NCBI GenBank assembly: GCA_004296885.1
Contig: SCVN01000014.1
Span: 1 to 64,000, forward strand
Length of the DNA: 64,000 bases
Reading direction: 5' to 3'
DNA from: Nitrospirota bacterium
Lineage (GTDB): Bacteria; Nitrospirota; Nitrospiria; Nitrospirales; Nitrospiraceae
Shown: one piece after another, positions 35,424-43,147 of the stretch
How the letters are laid out: each line of letters begins with the position of its first letter
How positions within the stretch are numbered: the first letter of the stretch is position 1
The notes under the pieces: model-generated
Seen by the model: only the letters and a program-made list of their open reading frames with translations
Told to the model about the DNA's origin: nothing
Databases searched by the model: none
Made by a program: the position numbers and the translations under genes

Positions 35424-36215
35424 GTGAAACTGCACCGCATCCAGGCCCTGATCACGCGACATCTGTTTCTCTATAAGCGGAGCCTGCCGCGGCTGATGGA
35501 GATTTTCTATTGGCCGTTTCTGGATCTCGTCGTCTGGGGCTTCATCACGGTCTATCTGATGAAGTTCCAGGGTCAGTTGCCCGGCGTCGTGACCTTTTTT
35601 CTCGGCGCCCTGATCCTCTGGGACGTCCTGTTCCGCGCCCAGCAGGGGATCACGATCTCGTTTCTGGAGGAAATCTGGTCCCGGAACCTGATGAACCTCT
35701 TCGCCAGTCCCTTGAAACCCAGCGAGTTTCTCGCGGCGACCATGGCCTTGAGTGTCTTCAAGGTGGCGATGGTCTCCTGCGTGATGGTGGCCGCGGCCTA
35801 TTTCTTCTATTCCTATAACGTGTTCATGATCGGGCTCTCGCTGATCCCCTTCGTGTTGAACCTGATCGTCACCGGCTGGATCATCGGGGTGCTCACGACG
35901 TCGCTGATCATGCGCTTCGGCCAGGAGGCGGAAGTGCTGGCCTGGGGCATGGTGTTTCTCTTCCAGCCGATCTCCTGCGTGTTCTATCCCATCGACATCC
36001 TCCCCAAGTGGCTGCAAGCCATCGCCTGGGCCAATCCGGCGACCCATGTGTTTGAGGGCATGCGCGGGGTGCTGAGCGGGGGATCGCTCCCGGTCGCGCA
36101 TCTCGGCTGGGCGGCGGGTCTGAACCTGCTCTACCTCGTGACCATCATCGGCGTCTTTCACTGGACGTTTAACATCTGCAAAGAAAAGGGGTTGCTGGTG
36201 CGGGTGGGGGAGTAG
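35424..36215 (+). CDS. ABC-2 type transporter permease
   Basis: 263 aa from the GTG at 35424 (TTG 35388 is also in frame). Six membrane helices can be traced. The conserved ABC-2 C-terminal stretch IDILPKWLQAIAWANPATHV (containing the LPxWLxxxxxxNPxTH type motif) is present. It pairs with the ATPase upstream to form an exporter. The link to the Mo/cytochrome genes is by position only. Confidence 0.88.
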   Translation: MKLHRIQALITRHLFLYKRSLPRLMEIFYWPFLDLVVWGFITVYLMKFQGQLPGVVTFFLGALILWDVLFRAQQGITISFLEEIWSRNLMNLFASPLKPSEFLAATMALSVFKVAMVSCVMVAAAYFFYSYNVFMIGLSLIPFVLNLIVTGWIIGVLTTSLIMRFGQEAEVLAWGMVFLFQPISCVFYPIDILPKWLQAIAWANPATHVFEGMRGVLSGGSLPVAHLGWAAGLNLLYLVTIIGVFHWTFNICKEKGLLVRVGE

Positions 36216-36251
36216 GAGAGCCGAAGGGTTCGCTGCTTCCGCTCAAAGGCC

Positions 36252-36403
36252 AGAGCCGTTTTGGCCATCCGTAAGCCTCTCCTTCGCTTGGCTGCGGAAC
36301 TCGGTCCGTCCTGAGCGGCGCTCGAACGGACCTCAAACAGTCCTCGCCACCCTCCTTCGTCGGGACGCTCCGGTTCGGCAACGACTGAACACAAAACGGC
36401 TCT
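36252..36403. repeat. 152-bp element with 12-bp inverted ends
   Basis: AGAGCCGTTTTG (36252-36263) and CAAAACGGCTCT (36392-36403) are perfect inverse copies. Inside, GGTCCGT and ACGGACC form a further hairpin. No coding capacity. It may be a small non-autonomous element or a structured transcript end. Confidence 0.55.
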
Positions 36404-36424
36404 GATGCACGCGTCAGCAGTTCA

Positions 36425-36470
36425 GCCCTTCACCCGCACCAGTTGAGAGGGGGGAGGAGCGGTGAAGGGC
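36425..36470. repeat. 10-bp stem-loop
   Basis: GCCCTTCACC (36425-36434) and GGTGAAGGGC (36461-36470), perfect, with a 26-nt loop. No T-run. It lies between converging genes and could be a bidirectional transcript boundary. Confidence 0.5.
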
Positions 36471-36522
36471 CGTGGTTCGGCATCACCAGCCTGCTACACA
36501 TGTGGTGGAGAGAGTTAAACTT

Positions 36523-37416
36523 TTAGGAGGAAGAGTGCTCTGATGTAGGGATATCTTTTGACGATGAGACTTTCAGCCCTTGTTCGGTCCATTTGGAAAA
36601 CACAAAGCTGGGAAATTCTTTCACGCCCGTCGCACCGGAAATGGGAGACAATTCATCTCCGACCTTTGTCAGGAGCACCTCTCCAACCTTAAGTGCATTG
36701 TCAGAGTCATTAGGGAACTCAAGATTTGCAGGCATTCCGTAGTAATAGACGGTGAGTTGTTTTGGAAGCTTAAAGAGGCCAAATGGAGCAGTAGGGTTAA
36801 ACGTGATCAGGCCAATGTCATCGAGATGTGTAAGTACATTAAAGTTGATACCATGATGATTGTAAATGTCGGCCTTATTGCTATAGATAAACAACTCTGT
36901 TCCGTCTCCAATAGACCAACCGAAACGACATAGGTTAGTGAAAAGCTGTGCATCCTCTTTGTCCAGAGTCGCAACAAACTCAACGGTTCGTCTTGAAAAT
37001 GCTCCAGGCTTATTGGCTTCGCCAGCGAGGAGCCGTGCCCATAGGCTTTGCATCTCGGTATCTGAAACGATCCTGCACTTCTCGAAAAAGTGAGCGAGCC
37101 AGTCATTCTCGATATTTTCCGGTTTAGCGTCTGCTTTTAGGTCTGGCAATGCTAGCGCGGTAATCCTCTCAATGTTTGCCTGTTTTTTCCCCTCCTCCTG
37201 AATGAGTCTTGCCAGACCTCGTTGCTGAATCCTGGTAATCTTAATGTCTGACAAGGCGCGAATTTCTGCGGCTTCGGCCTCGGCTTTTGCGACCCTTTTG
37301 ATCTGGCCGGGACGCAAGATTTCGCCGACCGCGTCTGATATCTTCTCAATCAGGACGGTCGCAGGCTTGGAAAGGTCACCCAAATTGACGTTAATCAGCC
37401 GGCCGCCTTCGCTCAT
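36523..37416 (-). CDS. DUF2806-like protein
   Basis: 297 aa, soluble. The N-terminus (INVNLGDLSKPATVLIEKIS, DAVGEILRPGQIKRVAKAEA) and the middle (KCRIVSDTEMQSLWARLLAG, FATLDKEDAQLFTNLCRFG-like segment, NFNVLTHLDDIGLITF) match my recollection of the DUF2806 family, whose function is not known. The gene is visibly lower in GC than its neighbours and has no Shine-Dalgarno, which suggests transfer. It stands alone between non-coding stretches, flanked on one side by the inverted-end element. Such scattered, AT-rich singletons often belong to accessory functions; nothing in the sequence proves defence. Confidence 0.72.
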   Translation of the reverse strand: MSEGGRLINVNLGDLSKPATVLIEKISDAVGEILRPGQIKRVAKAEAEAAEIRALSDIKITRIQQRGLARLIQEEGKKQANIERITALALPDLKADAKPENIENDWLAHFFEKCRIVSDTEMQSLWARLLAGEANKPGAFSRRTVEFVATLDKEDAQLFTNLCRFGWSIGDGTELFIYSNKADIYNHHGINFNVLTHLDDIGLITFNPTAPFGLFKLPKQLTVYYYGMPANLEFPNDSDNALKVGEVLLTKVGDELSPISGATGVKEFPSFVFSKWTEQGLKVSSSKDIPTSEHSSS

Positions 37417-37907
37417 AATACGGACAGGCTACTTTTTCAGGGGGACTGTGTCAACACACCAATTGCCTGAATCAGTAGAGAGAGAAATGATGTCAGGAAA
37501 CGCTTCGGGTCGTATTCCAGCGTGTAGCCCTATCGTGCATCCTCCGCTCTTGATCCCATCTGAATTGGTGAGCGTATCTCTGGCCAGATCGGTGTGCGGC
37601 GCTGTGGTTGTACCGTGGACCTATCGGTGGGGAGTCTGCGGAATCTGCCTGGGCTGCTGTCGCTAGGCAGGAATGGTCATGCGCTTGGCGGGCTGCTCTG
37701 GCATAACAGGTCAAGCCGAACGGCGCTGTACAGAAAAATCACGAGGTTGGCTCGTGGCACGTGGATTGCTCAAGTCTTATGGGGCGGCAGCCGACAGTCC
37801 TAGTAGAAGGACAAGCGGTTGGGATCATGTCGATCAGTCAAGACGGAAGGACCTATGGACAACTGATGACCTGAGTGGCGAGGCCGAAAGCCACCCAGGA
37901 GGTGGGT
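37417..37907. other. 491-bp stretch without a supported gene
   Basis: Open frames here (for example 37673-38143) lack ribosome sites and coding character. Base composition moves from AT-rich back to GC-rich. It contains the upstream regions of both flanking genes; no clear promoter was recognised. Confidence 0.5.
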
Positions 37908-38378
37908 ATGCGCCTCCTTGTGTCGATCATGGCTGTGCTGGTCACCCTGATGCAGGCTCCATCCCTGCGCGCCGACGAAACCGTGCCCGATCCTGCTGCC
38001 TATTCCCTGGACACCACCACGGAGATTCGTATCCTCCCCAACAGTCTGTTGCTCATCATCTATGCCGACCGGCAGACGGGGCGGTCCACCTATGCGACCT
38101 TGCACCGGGTCTATGCAGTGATGCCGGCGCCGGCCGATTCTGATTTTTCGGCGTTGGGTGTGTCGGTGACACTCTATACGACGGGCGGAGCCGAGGGGCT
38201 GGTCACCTATGCGGTCGGAACGTATCCCTTGTTCTACGGGGACCGGCTGGCGGACGACGGGTTCCCGGACCGTCTCTGGGAAGACCCTCTGGAGGACGGC
38301 TTGAACGGGAACGAGGTCAGTCTGGCGGATGGCTTCCGGCCGGCCGATCACCTGCAGGTGGCCGATCTGGATCTGTGA
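37908..38378 (+). CDS. small exported protein, unknown
   Basis: 156 aa. A signal peptide (MRLLVSIMAVLVTLMQAPSL, ending near RADE) is followed by a soluble domain rich in beta strands (TEIRILPNSLLLIIYADRQT, GVSVTLYTTGGAEGLVTYAV). The last third is acidic (DDGFPDRLWEDPLEDGLNGN). AGGAGGTG lies 5 nt before the ATG, a very strong ribosome site. No family recognised. It stands alone on this strand between the DUF2806-like gene and a methyltransferase. Confidence 0.7.
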   Translation: MRLLVSIMAVLVTLMQAPSLRADETVPDPAAYSLDTTTEIRILPNSLLLIIYADRQTGRSTYATLHRVYAVMPAPADSDFSALGVSVTLYTTGGAEGLVTYAVGTYPLFYGDRLADDGFPDRLWEDPLEDGLNGNEVSLADGFRPADHLQVADLDL

Positions 38379-38471
38379 GGTTCCTGCCGAGCCGGCTTTG
38401 GTCCCTGCCTGGCTGATTCTGCCCCGCCGGCTCATGGCGTGATCAATGTGGCGGCTCTTCCCGTGCGGCTG

Positions 38472-38500
38472 GTGCAATCCTCGCGCATTTCCACTACAAT
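38472..38500 (+). promoter_or_regulatory. shared 29-bp promoter element, copy 1
   Basis: It runs from GTGCAATCCTCGCGCATT to TACAAT (38495-38500) and matches 26 of 29 positions of the element at 40131-40159. TACAAT would be the -10 box and GTGCAA, 17 bp upstream, the -35 position. It lies about 110 bp before the methyltransferase start. Confidence 0.6.
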
Positions 38501-38607
38501 GCGTCCCCATATGCGTGATTGGAGCAGGCGGCCGCTTGGCGCCCTCCTTGTGGTGTTCCTTCAACTCCAGCCAAAGGTCGAACGTCCCGCCTTGTCGTAG
38601 CACACTC

Positions 38608-39429
38608 ATGGCGAACATAGATTTTAACCAGGCGCTTGCCGCCGGCGTGCGGTCCTATGACCGGCACGTTGGGCGATGGTGGGTGCAACGGACCACCAGC
38701 GCAGCCCACGCAGAGGCGTATGCCAACATTTCGAGCTATGTGGCTCGGCAGGCTCGGAAGCGGAGCGGTTTGATCGTCGACTACGCATGCGGCGCGGGTC
38801 TTCTGACGAAGCAGCTGGCCCAGTTACTTCCCCGCTGGAGGGTGCTTGGCATTGATGGGTCCAGGACCATGCTGCGCCACGCTGAGACGTGGGCCGGCCG
38901 AATGCGCAAGGACCGCCCGGGGTCCCTTGAGTGGCTCTATGCCAAGCTGCCGCACTTCTCGTTGCCTGTGCAGGCGGCAGACATCGTGGTCTTTGCGTTT
39001 CCGAATATCATTACCGGGGACATAGAGCGGCGTCATTTTGAGTGGCTGTATAGAGCGGACAGCGACGAGGCTCGGTTCATTGCCGCGAAACAGGGGAAGA
39101 CGGGAACGGATACCCTCTACGACCAATTGTTCATGAACCGAGTGATTGCACGCAATCTACGAGGCCTGCTTCGAAAGGGAGGTCTGTGCGTGCGTGTCGA
39201 CTATAGTCAGGGTGACAGGCATGAGTTGACCCGACAAGACCGGTTGGCGACGTTGTTTGAAGAAGGTTCGCTCAACGTAGGCCCGCCTCGTCTGAGGTCG
39301 GAGCCATTCTTTACTCTTGTCCGTTCATGCTATTACCCGTCGGAGGTCATTCGAGATGTCTATGAGCAGACCGAGGACGAGGATTTTTTGGAAGGTGGCT
39401 ATTCCGTCAGCCTGCTCAAAGCCCTGTAG
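38608..39429 (+). CDS. SAM-dependent methyltransferase (class I)
   Basis: 273 aa. Motif I is DYACGAGLLTKQL (about 50-62), followed by the acidic end of beta-2 (VLGIDGSRTMLRHAE) and the beta-4 region ADIVVFAFPNIITGDIERRH. The substrate is unknown. The N-terminal NQALAAGVRSYDRHVGRWW is reminiscent of methyltransferases acting on small molecules. ATG 38608 is the best start by similarity, since the longer frame upstream reads through promoter-like sequence; no strong Shine-Dalgarno is seen. Confidence 0.8.
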   Translation: MANIDFNQALAAGVRSYDRHVGRWWVQRTTSAAHAEAYANISSYVARQARKRSGLIVDYACGAGLLTKQLAQLLPRWRVLGIDGSRTMLRHAETWAGRMRKDRPGSLEWLYAKLPHFSLPVQAADIVVFAFPNIITGDIERRHFEWLYRADSDEARFIAAKQGKTGTDTLYDQLFMNRVIARNLRGLLRKGGLCVRVDYSQGDRHELTRQDRLATLFEEGSLNVGPPRLRSEPFFTLVRSCYYPSEVIRDVYEQTEDEDFLEGGYSVSLLKAL

Positions 39430-39691
39430 GTCGACGATGCTGGACGTTCTCCTGTCCCGGTCAAGGCCAGGAACCGGCTTGGCCGGTGGGGGCCGTTGCT
39501 TCGGTTTTCCCTTCAGTCGGCCACGCGCTCAACCTCTGGCGGTAAACAGAAAGTCAGCGAGGCTCAAGCGGTGCCAGAGTGGTGGCGCCGTTCCAGATGT
39601 GTCCTCTGGCGTAAGTCGCCACGACCCCGTCGGAGAATCTCTCCGGGGGGCGTGGCGATAGGCCCTGGAGCCCCTTATCGTGGGCATGGAC

Positions 39692-39964
39692 TTACTTGCC
39701 GTCTGCCGGCATCGTGTCCGTCGACCAGATGGGGCCGCTGTAGGGCTTGGCCTTGGGAGCCGGAGCCGCGACCTTCTTGGGCGGCTCAGGGGCCACTGTG
39801 TCGCTCGCCCAGATCTGATCCGGGTACGCCTTCTTGGCGCCATCTTTCTTGTCCGCGACCCTCTTGGGCGGATCGGCGTCCGGCACCCCGGCGAGTGAGG
39901 TCATGGGCAGGCCGGCGGTGCCCAGCACCGCCATGCACACCAACATACCAATGGTCCGTTTCAT
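39692..39964 (-). CDS. small exported protein with two IW-DT repeats
   Basis: 90 aa. A signal peptide (about 1-25, ending SLAGV) is followed by a Lys/Pro/Ala-rich chain with two similar motifs, DQIWASDTVAPEPPKK and GPIWSTDTMPADGK. GGGAGGGA lies 5 nt before the ATG. It is probably periplasmic and disordered. No family recognised. Confidence 0.65.
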   Translation of the reverse strand: MKRTIGMLVCMAVLGTAGLPMTSLAGVPDADPPKRVADKKDGAKKAYPDQIWASDTVAPEPPKKVAAPAPKAKPYSGPIWSTDTMPADGK

Positions 39965-40130
39965 ACTATCCCTCCCTGGTTCCCGCCGTAGGCTGCTCCT
40001 CGGCGTGCTAAAGGTTGCTGGCTGGTTTCCTTATCGGATAAATACTCGCGGGACCTGAGTACCCTGGAGAAATGAAGGGGCAGGGGGGGCGGTTGGGATG
40101 GCGGCCTGCAGTAATGTCCCTCTCTAACTC

Positions 40131-40159
40131 GTGCAATCTCCGCGCATTTGCACTACAAT
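40131..40159 (+). promoter_or_regulatory. shared 29-bp promoter element, copy 2
   Basis: It runs from GTGCAATCTCCGCGCATT to TACAAT (40154-40159), with -35-like GTGCAA 17 bp upstream. GTGCAA and TTGCAC form an inverted repeat inside the spacer. It lies 35 bp before the TAXI gene start. Confidence 0.65.
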
Positions 40160-40193
40160 CCTGACCCAGTCGGCCTTGTGAGGATTGTAGCCT

Positions 40194-41609
40194 ATGGCGT
40201 TCCAGATACCTTCAGTCGGATGGTTGGTCAGTTATCGCCGGATTAGACGTTCGGCGCTGATCTATCGCCGGTTTACGCGGCGGTCCGTCCTCGGCGGCTT
40301 CCTTCTCGGTAATCGGTGGCTGTTGACCCTGATTCTGCTCCTGGCGCCCCTGGTTGTCGCAGGGCTCGAGCTGACCCACCGCGCGAAGATGGACTACTAT
40401 CTGCTCACCGGCCCCAAGGGCGGGACCTACGATGTCGTCGCGCCCCGTCTCGCCGAGGTCTTGAACCGGCCGGACAAGCTGGAGCGCTTTCTGCACCTCA
40501 ACATCGTGCCGGACTTCACGTTCCGGGAAACCTGCGGGTCGTTGGAGAATCTCTTTTACATCGACCATGGGTTGGGGCAACTGGCCTTTGCCGAAGACGG
40601 CTTGCCCTTGCATTTCACCAGGACCAGCGAGTGCAAGCTGCCGATCGGATCCGAGCCGGTAAAAGAGGAGGGCATGCACAAGGAAATCCGTATGCGCGCG
40701 CTCATGCCGCTCTACAAGTCGCCGCTCCACATCGTGGCCAGGAATAGCCTCGGGATCGCCGACGCAGACGATATTCCGCCCAAGACCAGGACGTACCTGG
40801 GCCCGGAAGGCAGCGCGACGGCATACCTCGCCCATCTGGTGCTGGACCACTATGGGATCGCCGTGGAGCGGGTGGGAGACGATCTGGATTACGAGCAGGC
40901 GGCGCAGCAGATGAAAGAGGGGAAAATCGACGTGGGCTTCTTCCTCTCGGGTCTGAAAGCCGGCGTGGGGAGCACGCTGGCGCGCCACGAGGGGGAATTC
41001 CATCTGTTGCGGGTGCAGCATGCGCAGGGGCTGACGATGCTCCATCCCTTCCTCGTGGAGGTCAAGATTCCCGGCGCCGCGTTTCAGGACGCGTCCCAGG
41101 AAATCTCGACCATCGGGACCAACACGATTCTGGCGGCGTCCACCGACCTGAGCGATCTCGAAGCTTATGAAATCGCCGCGAAGATCGACCGCAACGTGCA
41201 GGACATTCTACAGGGCATCCCGCTCAACTACGCCAAACTGGCGGACATGGACCCGCGGAAGGGGCTCTACTACACGCTCCACGAAGGGGCGTTGCGGTTC
41301 TACGATCACGATCCGCCGTTTTTCATGGATCCGCGCACGCTGGCCGGCATCGGAACGTATCTGTCGCTGCTGTTCGCCATTTTTACCCTCTCGTCGCAGT
41401 TCGTCCGGGACTACCTGGTGCATCGTTTCTTGTATTCGGTGGATCGGGCGGTGAAAGCCTTCAAGGTGATGCCCAACCAGCCGGCCTCGAAGCGGTACGA
41501 CCATTACATGCACCGGCTCAAGTACCGGGCGTTGAACTTGTTGAAGGACGAGCGGATCAGGTTGGAGGATTACAAGCGGATTGACGAGTACATCAAGGGC
41601 CATTCCTGA
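40194..41609 (+). CDS. membrane-anchored TAXI-family (TRAP-type) solute-binding protein
   Basis: 471 aa. A membrane helix at about 42-61, a binding domain of the TAXI/NMT1-like type (YYLLTGPKGGTYDVVAPRLA is the family start; TYLGPEGSATAYLAHLVLDH; GKIDVGFFLSGLKAG), a second membrane helix at about 380-400 and a cytoplasmic tail of about 70 charged residues. Normal TAXI proteins are free periplasmic proteins next to a TRAP permease; none is here. Anchoring at both ends suggests a sensor-like or stand-alone role (inference). The stop codon is directly followed by a half copy of the inverted-end element. Confidence 0.82.
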   Translation: MAFQIPSVGWLVSYRRIRRSALIYRRFTRRSVLGGFLLGNRWLLTLILLLAPLVVAGLELTHRAKMDYYLLTGPKGGTYDVVAPRLAEVLNRPDKLERFLHLNIVPDFTFRETCGSLENLFYIDHGLGQLAFAEDGLPLHFTRTSECKLPIGSEPVKEEGMHKEIRMRALMPLYKSPLHIVARNSLGIADADDIPPKTRTYLGPEGSATAYLAHLVLDHYGIAVERVGDDLDYEQAAQQMKEGKIDVGFFLSGLKAGVGSTLARHEGEFHLLRVQHAQGLTMLHPFLVEVKIPGAAFQDASQEISTIGTNTILAASTDLSDLEAYEIAAKIDRNVQDILQGIPLNYAKLADMDPRKGLYYTLHEGALRFYDHDPPFFMDPRTLAGIGTYLSLLFAIFTLSSQFVRDYLVHRFLYSVDRAVKAFKVMPNQPASKRYDHYMHRLKYRALNLLKDERIRLEDYKRIDEYIKGHS

Positions 41610-41692
41610 CAGGATGTTGAAGGCATTTTCAGCAATCAGCGTTCAGCCGTCAGCTCCGGAAACGGAGAACTGTTCACTGAAAACTCTTCTTA
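41610..41692. repeat. half element plus inverted heptad array between converging genes
   Basis: CAGGATGTTGAAGGC directly follows the stop codon (left end of the dispersed element). From 41626 it passes into 7-bp repeats (CAGCAAT, CAGCGTT, CAGCCGT). CTCCG-GAAA-CGGAG and TTTTCAG...CTGAAAA close a hairpin. It probably ends transcription from both sides. Confidence 0.6.
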
Positions 41693-43147
41693 GAGAGGTT
41701 TGCCGGATCGTTCCTTCATCCGGTCCAGGCGGACTTTGTCAAGCTGCACGAAGAGGGCCTTTTCCTGGGTGACTGTTACCGTGCCGGGCGGCTGGCCCTT
41801 GGCCTTGCGGACCCATTTCCGGCGCGTGTAGATCACTTCTCCCTTCCCGCTCTTCTTTAAATCGCTATAGAGCAGCGCGAGCGTGGCCGCGTCCCGGATC
41901 GTCTCCTGGGGCGGATCGGCGCCTTTCTCGAGTCGCACGACCACGTGAGAACCGGGCGTGCCGTGGGCATGGAGCCACAAGTCGTCGCTGTGGGCGAACT
42001 TGAAGGTCAGCTCGTCGTTCTCCCGCGCATTGCGGCCCACATAGATAGGCAGCCCGTCCGTCGAGATGAAGCGGCGGAAGGGGCCGGAATGTTTTGCATG
42101 CTGAACGCTGAATGCTGAACGCTGAGCGGGGGGAGGCAACAGGGATTGCTTGGACGACCTGGGCTCCGCCGGTGCCGGCTGCCAGGTATCCAGCTCAAGC
42201 GCCTTCCGTTCGGCCTGCAGGCCTTGCAGGTCCTTTTCCGCCTTGGCCAGCCTGGGTTTGATCTCCTTGTCTGCCGCCAGGTATTTGCGGTGCTTCTTGA
42301 AATAGTCGTCCATATTGGCTTGGGGTCCTTTCGCTGGGTCCAGCGGCAAGGTCAACTCCGGCATGGCCGGATCGAAATAGTCTGTCACCACCACCTGTTC
42401 CTGGCCTTTTTTGATCAGCCCCAGATTTGCCTTCAGGAGCTCTCCATAGCGGGCATACTCGCGGTACCGTTCGGTCTTCTCCAAATCCTCGCGCAGGGCT
42501 TCGATGCGCCTGGCGGTTTTCTTGATGCTTTTTCTGAGTTCGGCCCCGCGTTTCTGCCTGAGGCTTGCGAGAGCCAGTGCCTCTTCCTTCGCCTGGTACC
42601 GTTGCTCCAAGGCATAGGACCAGGGAAAAGGCTGGTTCTGGTCAGGCGGAAGACCGACCGCCGGCACGGCATCGCGCGATTGGGGGCTTCTGGTTGGCGC
42701 CCGATAGGGTTGCCCCGCTTTCTGCTGGCCCTCCTCCAGGGTTGTCAGGATCTTGTCCTCCGCATCCAGCAGGAGGAGGTCGGCGCTGCGGCCGGTCAAC
42801 AAGGCCAGCAACGAGCAGGGACCTTCCCGCGTGGTCAGCCTGAGGCGCACGATCCGGTCGCCCGGCACCTGTTCGAGTCCGTCAATGTGGGCGCCGTGGA
42901 TGTGGGCTCGCAGGAATTGGCAGAAAGGCGGAGGGCTGGCCGGGTTGGGCGGACGGTGGCCGAGCAGGTGCACACGCGCGGTTTCAGGATCGGCCGAGCA
43001 GAGTAGCAGCAGGGTGCGTCCGGGGGTGCGGATCTCCAGGGTGACGGTGCGGGGTGTCGGCTGAAAAACCTTCTGAACCCAACCGTCGGCTAATGCGGGC
43101 GCGATCTCTTCGACCACGGACGCCAGTTCTTGCGCTGTCAGGCCCAC
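41690..43147 (-). CDS. rqcH: RqcH/NFACT family ribosome quality-control protein
   Basis: 485 aa. RqcH binds stalled 50S subunits and recruits tRNA-Ala to add Ala tails to the nascent chain. Seen: NFACT-N (LTAQELASVVEEIAPALADG at the start, LLLLCSADPETARVHLLGHR), a long coiled coil (about 195-330) and the C-terminal NFACT-R domain (IYVGRNARENDELTFKFAHS, DDLWLHAHGTPGSHVVVR). GTG at 43147 is chosen because GGGAGGAG lies just upstream; ATG 43204 is in frame but unsupported. Odd: a heptad repeat array (42098-42125) is translated in frame in the linker before NFACT-R as SAFSVQHA. Confidence 0.9.
   Translation of the reverse strand: MGLTAQELASVVEEIAPALADGWVQKVFQPTPRTVTLEIRTPGRTLLLLCSADPETARVHLLGHRPPNPASPPPFCQFLRAHIHGAHIDGLEQVPGDRIVRLRLTTREGPCSLLALLTGRSADLLLLDAEDKILTTLEEGQQKAGQPYRAPTRSPQSRDAVPAVGLPPDQNQPFPWSYALEQRYQAKEEALALASLRQKRGAELRKSIKKTARRIEALREDLEKTERYREYARYGELLKANLGLIKKGQEQVVVTDYFDPAMPELTLPLDPAKGPQANMDDYFKKHRKYLAADKEIKPRLAKAEKDLQGLQAERKALELDTWQPAPAEPRSSKQSLLPPPAQRSAFSVQHAKHSGPFRRFISTDGLPIYVGRNARENDELTFKFAHSDDLWLHAHGTPGSHVVVRLEKGADPPQETIRDAATLALLYSDLKKSGKGEVIYTRRKWVRKAKGQPPGTVTVTQEKALFVQLDKVRLDRMKERSGKPL
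42098..42125. repeat. 7-bp tandem repeat inside rqcH
   Basis: GCTGAAC, GCTGAAT, GCTGAAC, GCTGAGC: four heptads within the coding frame, in the linker between the coiled coil and NFACT-R. Confidence 0.65.

Follow-up and report, generated by a model that had tools for sequence, protein, structure and literature searches.

Two neighbouring genes, coding for a methyltransferase and for a TAXI family solute-binding protein, are each preceded by a near-identical 29-bp element in the 64,000-nucleotide stretch of DNA that was analysed (the window). The element has the layout of a promoter, occurs nowhere else in the genome and is conserved upstream of both genes in the genus. The reading that we prefer, with a probability of about 0.55, is that both elements are sigma70-type promoters of the ordinary kind, which derive from a single promoter that was copied and have been kept by selection. 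On the sequence data, then, we are probably looking at a lineage-specific promoter that was duplicated and serves two neighbours. Such a pair would illustrate cleanly how two unrelated neighbouring genes can use one and the same promoter sequence, retained while the surrounding DNA turned over.

Distribution of the element in the genome, the genus and the order

The methyltransferase element lies at 38472-38500 and the TAXI gene element at 40131-40159, both on the forward strand and 1.66 kb apart. They are identical at 26 of 29 positions, and both show GTGCAA as the -35 hexamer, a 17-bp spacer and TACAAT as the -10 hexamer; positions, identity and hexamers are exactly those reported in an earlier note on this DNA. 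An all-pairs screen of the window returned two direct pairs of 29-mers agreeing at 26 or more positions, namely the pair of elements and a GC-rich local repeat (5294/5366), while each of 40 first-order Markov windows contained none.

In the window's own genome (3,259,612 bases in 23 contigs), a degenerate 29-mer with up to three mismatches matched these two elements only (reversed-pattern control, 0), and the looser pattern GTGCAAT-N12..17-CTANAAT found again just the same two. The earlier note had proposed a search of the genome for the pattern: both copies stand upstream of the two genes, and copies are not spread away from gene starts. A mobile repeat of the REP or MITE-like kind is ruled out, as many dispersed copies would be expected for it versus two in 3.26 Mb. 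Beyond the 29 bp, the likeness is weak: one comparison gave 80% identity over 41 nt, and in another the flanks of this pair were at resampling level.

The genus sample comprises four genomes: G000 (the window's own), G001, G002 and G003. The element is present in 4/4, at seven sites, each of them upstream of a methyltransferase or a TAXI gene. It precedes the methyltransferase gene in all three genomes with that gene (G000, G001 and G003; in G001 the methyltransferase and TAXI genes are on separate contigs, with the ends of the two facing one another) and the TAXI gene in all four. Hence, each genome has two copies, except the incomplete G002 (77% complete), which has one; in this assembly no methyltransferase match was found and the gene is missing from this place. 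A 29-position model built from the seven sites scored them at 30.0-35.6 bits, with the next best site at no more than 12.4 bits (150 candidates scored per genome).

Outside the genus, the element is absent upstream of more distant orthologues of the methyltransferase (G012, G030) and of TAXI relatives (G060, G022, G019, G014). When 235 genomes of the order were searched with the pattern of invariant bases, allowing one mismatch, it matched in the four members of the genus and, among the other 231, at one site each in G054 and G233; the reversed control gave none. These two sites carry one mismatch, and the longest ORFs beginning within 300 nt downstream of them measure 96 and 52 aa. A scan of a wider collection of genome contigs gave eight stretches, three in the genus and five scattered over unrelated phyla. 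The promoter-like element that the note had described as shared by two genes is unique to them, and the genus has kept it in front of each.

Layout of the sites and promoter type

The seven sites have the same base at positions 1-8 (GTGCAATC), 15, 18, 19, 22-25 and 27-29. The -10 hexamer is TACAAT at five sites and TAGAAT at two, each matching the TATAAT consensus at 5/6 positions, and the spacer is always 17 bp long. Two hexamers at this spacing, a TACAAT/TAGAAT -10 preceded by C as at other sites of this genome, and a distance of 34-107 nt to the conserved start codon that follows are features in common with housekeeping sigma70 (RpoD) promoters. The differences from that class are a spacer sequence common to two genes and the -35 hexamer GTGCAA, which is not close to TTGACA (3/6) and matches TTGCAA at 5/6 positions. 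Neither element was flagged by a consensus promoter scan; poor -35 boxes are common among real promoters.

In the own genome, TTGACA-N16-CTANAAT with up to one mismatch occurs at 43 sites versus 2 in the reversed control, and TTGCAA-N16-CTANAAT at 17 sites (the two elements included) versus 3. Given this enrichment at a 16-bp distance, CTANAAT behaves as the usual -10 of the genome, and the elements fit with a weak -35. The pattern TTGACA-N16-CTANAAT gives an initial impression of how promoters of the genus look; full-text searches on Nitrospira promoters, transcription starts and leaderless messages, on TAXI/TRAP and on Leptospirillum sigma70 promoters brought up no paper that, judged by title or abstract start, deals with the promoters of this genus. 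Several TTGCAA/TTGAAA sites are conserved between species, for example upstream of genes that we take, from their translations, to be ndk and a comM/yifB-type gene. TTGACA/TTGCAA sites were upstream of ORFs in 7/15 cases versus 5/15 antisense and in 12/28 versus 12/28, counts made in GC-rich DNA and including among the 28 two misread loci that are not centred on the site (L089, L110). At three other loci (L045, L049 and L053), the -10 of the promoter-like site is only 6-9 nt before the start codon, so leaderless messages would result.

An alternative sigma factor of the ECF type, reading GTGCAATC-N13-ACTASAAT, would also produce near-invariant -35 and -10 blocks at a fixed spacing in 7/7 sites. 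However, the -10 belongs to the CTANAAT class that is common in the own genome. Genes for ECF sigma factors usually have a copy of their own promoter, and the search with the model turned up no third site. We consider this explanation very improbable.

The earlier note had also seen an operator-like palindrome in the element, and this claim did not survive the comparison among species. The dyad GTGCAA-N11-TTGCAC is intact in the TAXI gene element (40131-40153) and has one mismatch in the methyltransferase element. Position 20 is C in six of the seven sites, which breaks the dyad, and G in the window's TAXI site only, so that a single site out of seven is intact. Genome-wide, dyads with up to one mismatch amount to five distinct sites, two of which are the elements, versus four for the control. 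A dyad broken in 6/7 sites and present in the genome at control level is not a conserved operator; the conserved inverted repeat expected for a dimeric repressor or activator is not seen.

Origin of the likeness between the two sites

According to the copied-promoter reading, the weak -35 GTGCAA, the 17-bp spacer and the good -10 (CTACAAT/CTAGAAT) would form the promoters of two units, of one gene each, that lie side by side. A stretch the size of a promoter (about -67 to -7) would have been duplicated when the methyltransferase and TAXI genes became neighbours, before the split of the four species. Purifying selection on the promoter would then have kept both copies near their common sequence, while upstream and intergenic sequence turned over. 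We infer, along with the duplication itself, transcription from both sites and their recognition by RpoD; a similar expression of the two genes would be a by-product.

Several observations bear on this reading. Between the two elements the spacers are identical at 13/16 positions, whereas 55 other such sites, compared in 1485 pairs, gave a maximum of 11. The seven sites diverge from one consensus in a star-like manner, with 0-4 differences each; sites of different genes differ at 3-7 positions and TAXI sites among themselves at 4-6, thus the distance between the genes is about that between orthologous TAXI sites. Upstream of the window's TAXI gene element, a block (GGCGGCCTGCAGTA, 40100..40113, forward strand) is found that also occurs in the G001 methyltransferase promoter; in both cases 16-17 bp separate it from the element. 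The 17-nt block that precedes the G001 methyltransferase element by 16 bp agrees at 15/17 positions with the one preceding the window's TAXI element by 17 bp; 5/500 resampled pairs were as good, a modest figure after the comparison of 21 pairs. A block similar to that of GGCGGCCTGCAGTA is present in the TAXI promoter of G002. The block common to the G001 methyltransferase and the window's TAXI promoters is best read as a trace of the copied promoter segment. Against copying, it is missing in the methyltransferase promoters of G000 and G003 and in the TAXI promoter of G003, and no methyltransferase-TAXI pair has common sequence downstream of the -10. In G001, homology to the window's methyltransferase unit starts right at the element (11045), so that sequence beyond it on the upstream side does not look necessary.

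Gene conversion between the two sites could keep them alike within each genome, and the sites of G000 do differ at only three positions. Nevertheless, the pairs within genomes (3, 5 and 5 differences in G000, G001 and G003) are no closer than those across species, and the G000 methyltransferase site differs from the TAXI sites of G002 and G003 at three positions each. Since distances within genomes are not below those between genomes, ongoing gene conversion is spoken against, and we give this explanation scant credence.

Speaking against an ordinary promoter, spacer bases T7, C8, C15, T18, T19 and A22, for which sigma70 should have no need, are invariant in 7/7 sites. A dedicated transcription factor binding GTGCAATCC and/or CATTTC over the -35 and the spacer, with a private regulon of two genes, would account for the constancy of GTGCAATC and of C15, T18, T19 and A22, and for sites of the two genes as alike as orthologous ones. 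It would also suit the weak -35 (3/6), which is typical of activated promoters. Nevertheless, searches of the genus genomes with the model and the patterns found no third site, hence none upstream of the factor's own regulator gene, and a family scan of five proteins encoded near the site showed no regulator. The dyad is neither conserved nor above control level in the genome. Ordinary promoters too have conserved spacers between species, and the sites upstream of the presumed ndk differ at 2-3/29 positions. Small regulons with a common operator overlapping the -35 likewise have one site in front of genes whose products are unrelated, but here there is no conserved dyad, no known factor and two targets only. 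A dedicated factor therefore seems rather unlikely. We are more doubtful about a fuller version, in which an undescribed factor would read GTGCAATCC and CATTTC in a private regulon specific to the genus and couple the methyltransferase to the membrane-anchored TAXI protein; in these relatives of nitrite oxidisers the two might then act as a sensory pair.

Of the co-regulation by one factor proposed in the earlier note, the shared promoter-like element stands; for the rest, an ordinary promoter inherited in common accounts for the observations no less well than a dedicated factor does. The promoter pair by itself reveals no new regulator. Co-expression of the methyltransferase and TAXI genes is plausible on these grounds, and the likeness of the sites suggests that the two are expressed alike, which would be a hint to their roles.

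Genes around the elements

The genes downstream of the elements had been correctly named as those of a methyltransferase and a TAXI protein. The first codes for a class I SAM-dependent methyltransferase of 273 aa (38608..39429, forward strand), with a match to Pfam PF13649 (E 6.4e-9) and NCBIfam matches below cut-offs only. Its longest ORF, from 38446, wrongly runs through the promoter; the ATG at 38608 is conserved in G001, G003, G012 and G030, which puts the start there, 107 nt from the element. The sequence before this start (38446-38607) is without an obvious Shine-Dalgarno sequence. The TAXI family solute-binding protein (471 aa; 40194..41609, forward strand) matches TIGR02122 with 103.6 bits (cut-off 84.35) and has two hydrophobic stretches, near residues 32-64 and 382-401; its gene starts 34 nt from the element. 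In G002, the reading frame of the TAXI gene changes near residue 75, so that the gene is divided between two frames.

An Rfam scan of 36000-42000 gave no known RNA element up to E 1. A conserved RNA structure in the methyltransferase leader found no real support in three sequences, the covariation term being -0.21 of -24.51 kcal/mol.

The gene order is cytochrome, two ABC genes, methyltransferase, small gene, TAXI and RqcH-like gene, with two additional genes in G000 between the ABC genes and the methyltransferase (36523-38378): a DUF2806/TIGR03899-like gene, which matches Abi_alpha weakly, and a gene of 167 aa for which no family matched. Both are missing from the corresponding place in G001 and G002, and in G001 the methyltransferase comes directly after the ABC genes.

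Between the two units lies a gene for a 90-aa protein (39692..39964, reverse strand), divergent to the TAXI gene, with a start that by eye resembles a signal peptide; a family match was sought for it and none was found. In G002 this gene looks decayed (50% identity over 48 aa only, with an early stop), and the TAXI element is retained. Upstream of the 90-aa gene (39965-40060, reverse strand), T[GA]TCCGATAAGG followed by GCCAGCAA is conserved in all four species (L068, L070, L071), and in G000 and G003 the stretch holds the inverted repeat TTATC-C-GATAA. This stretch is possibly the promoter of the 90-aa gene or a site for a regulator.
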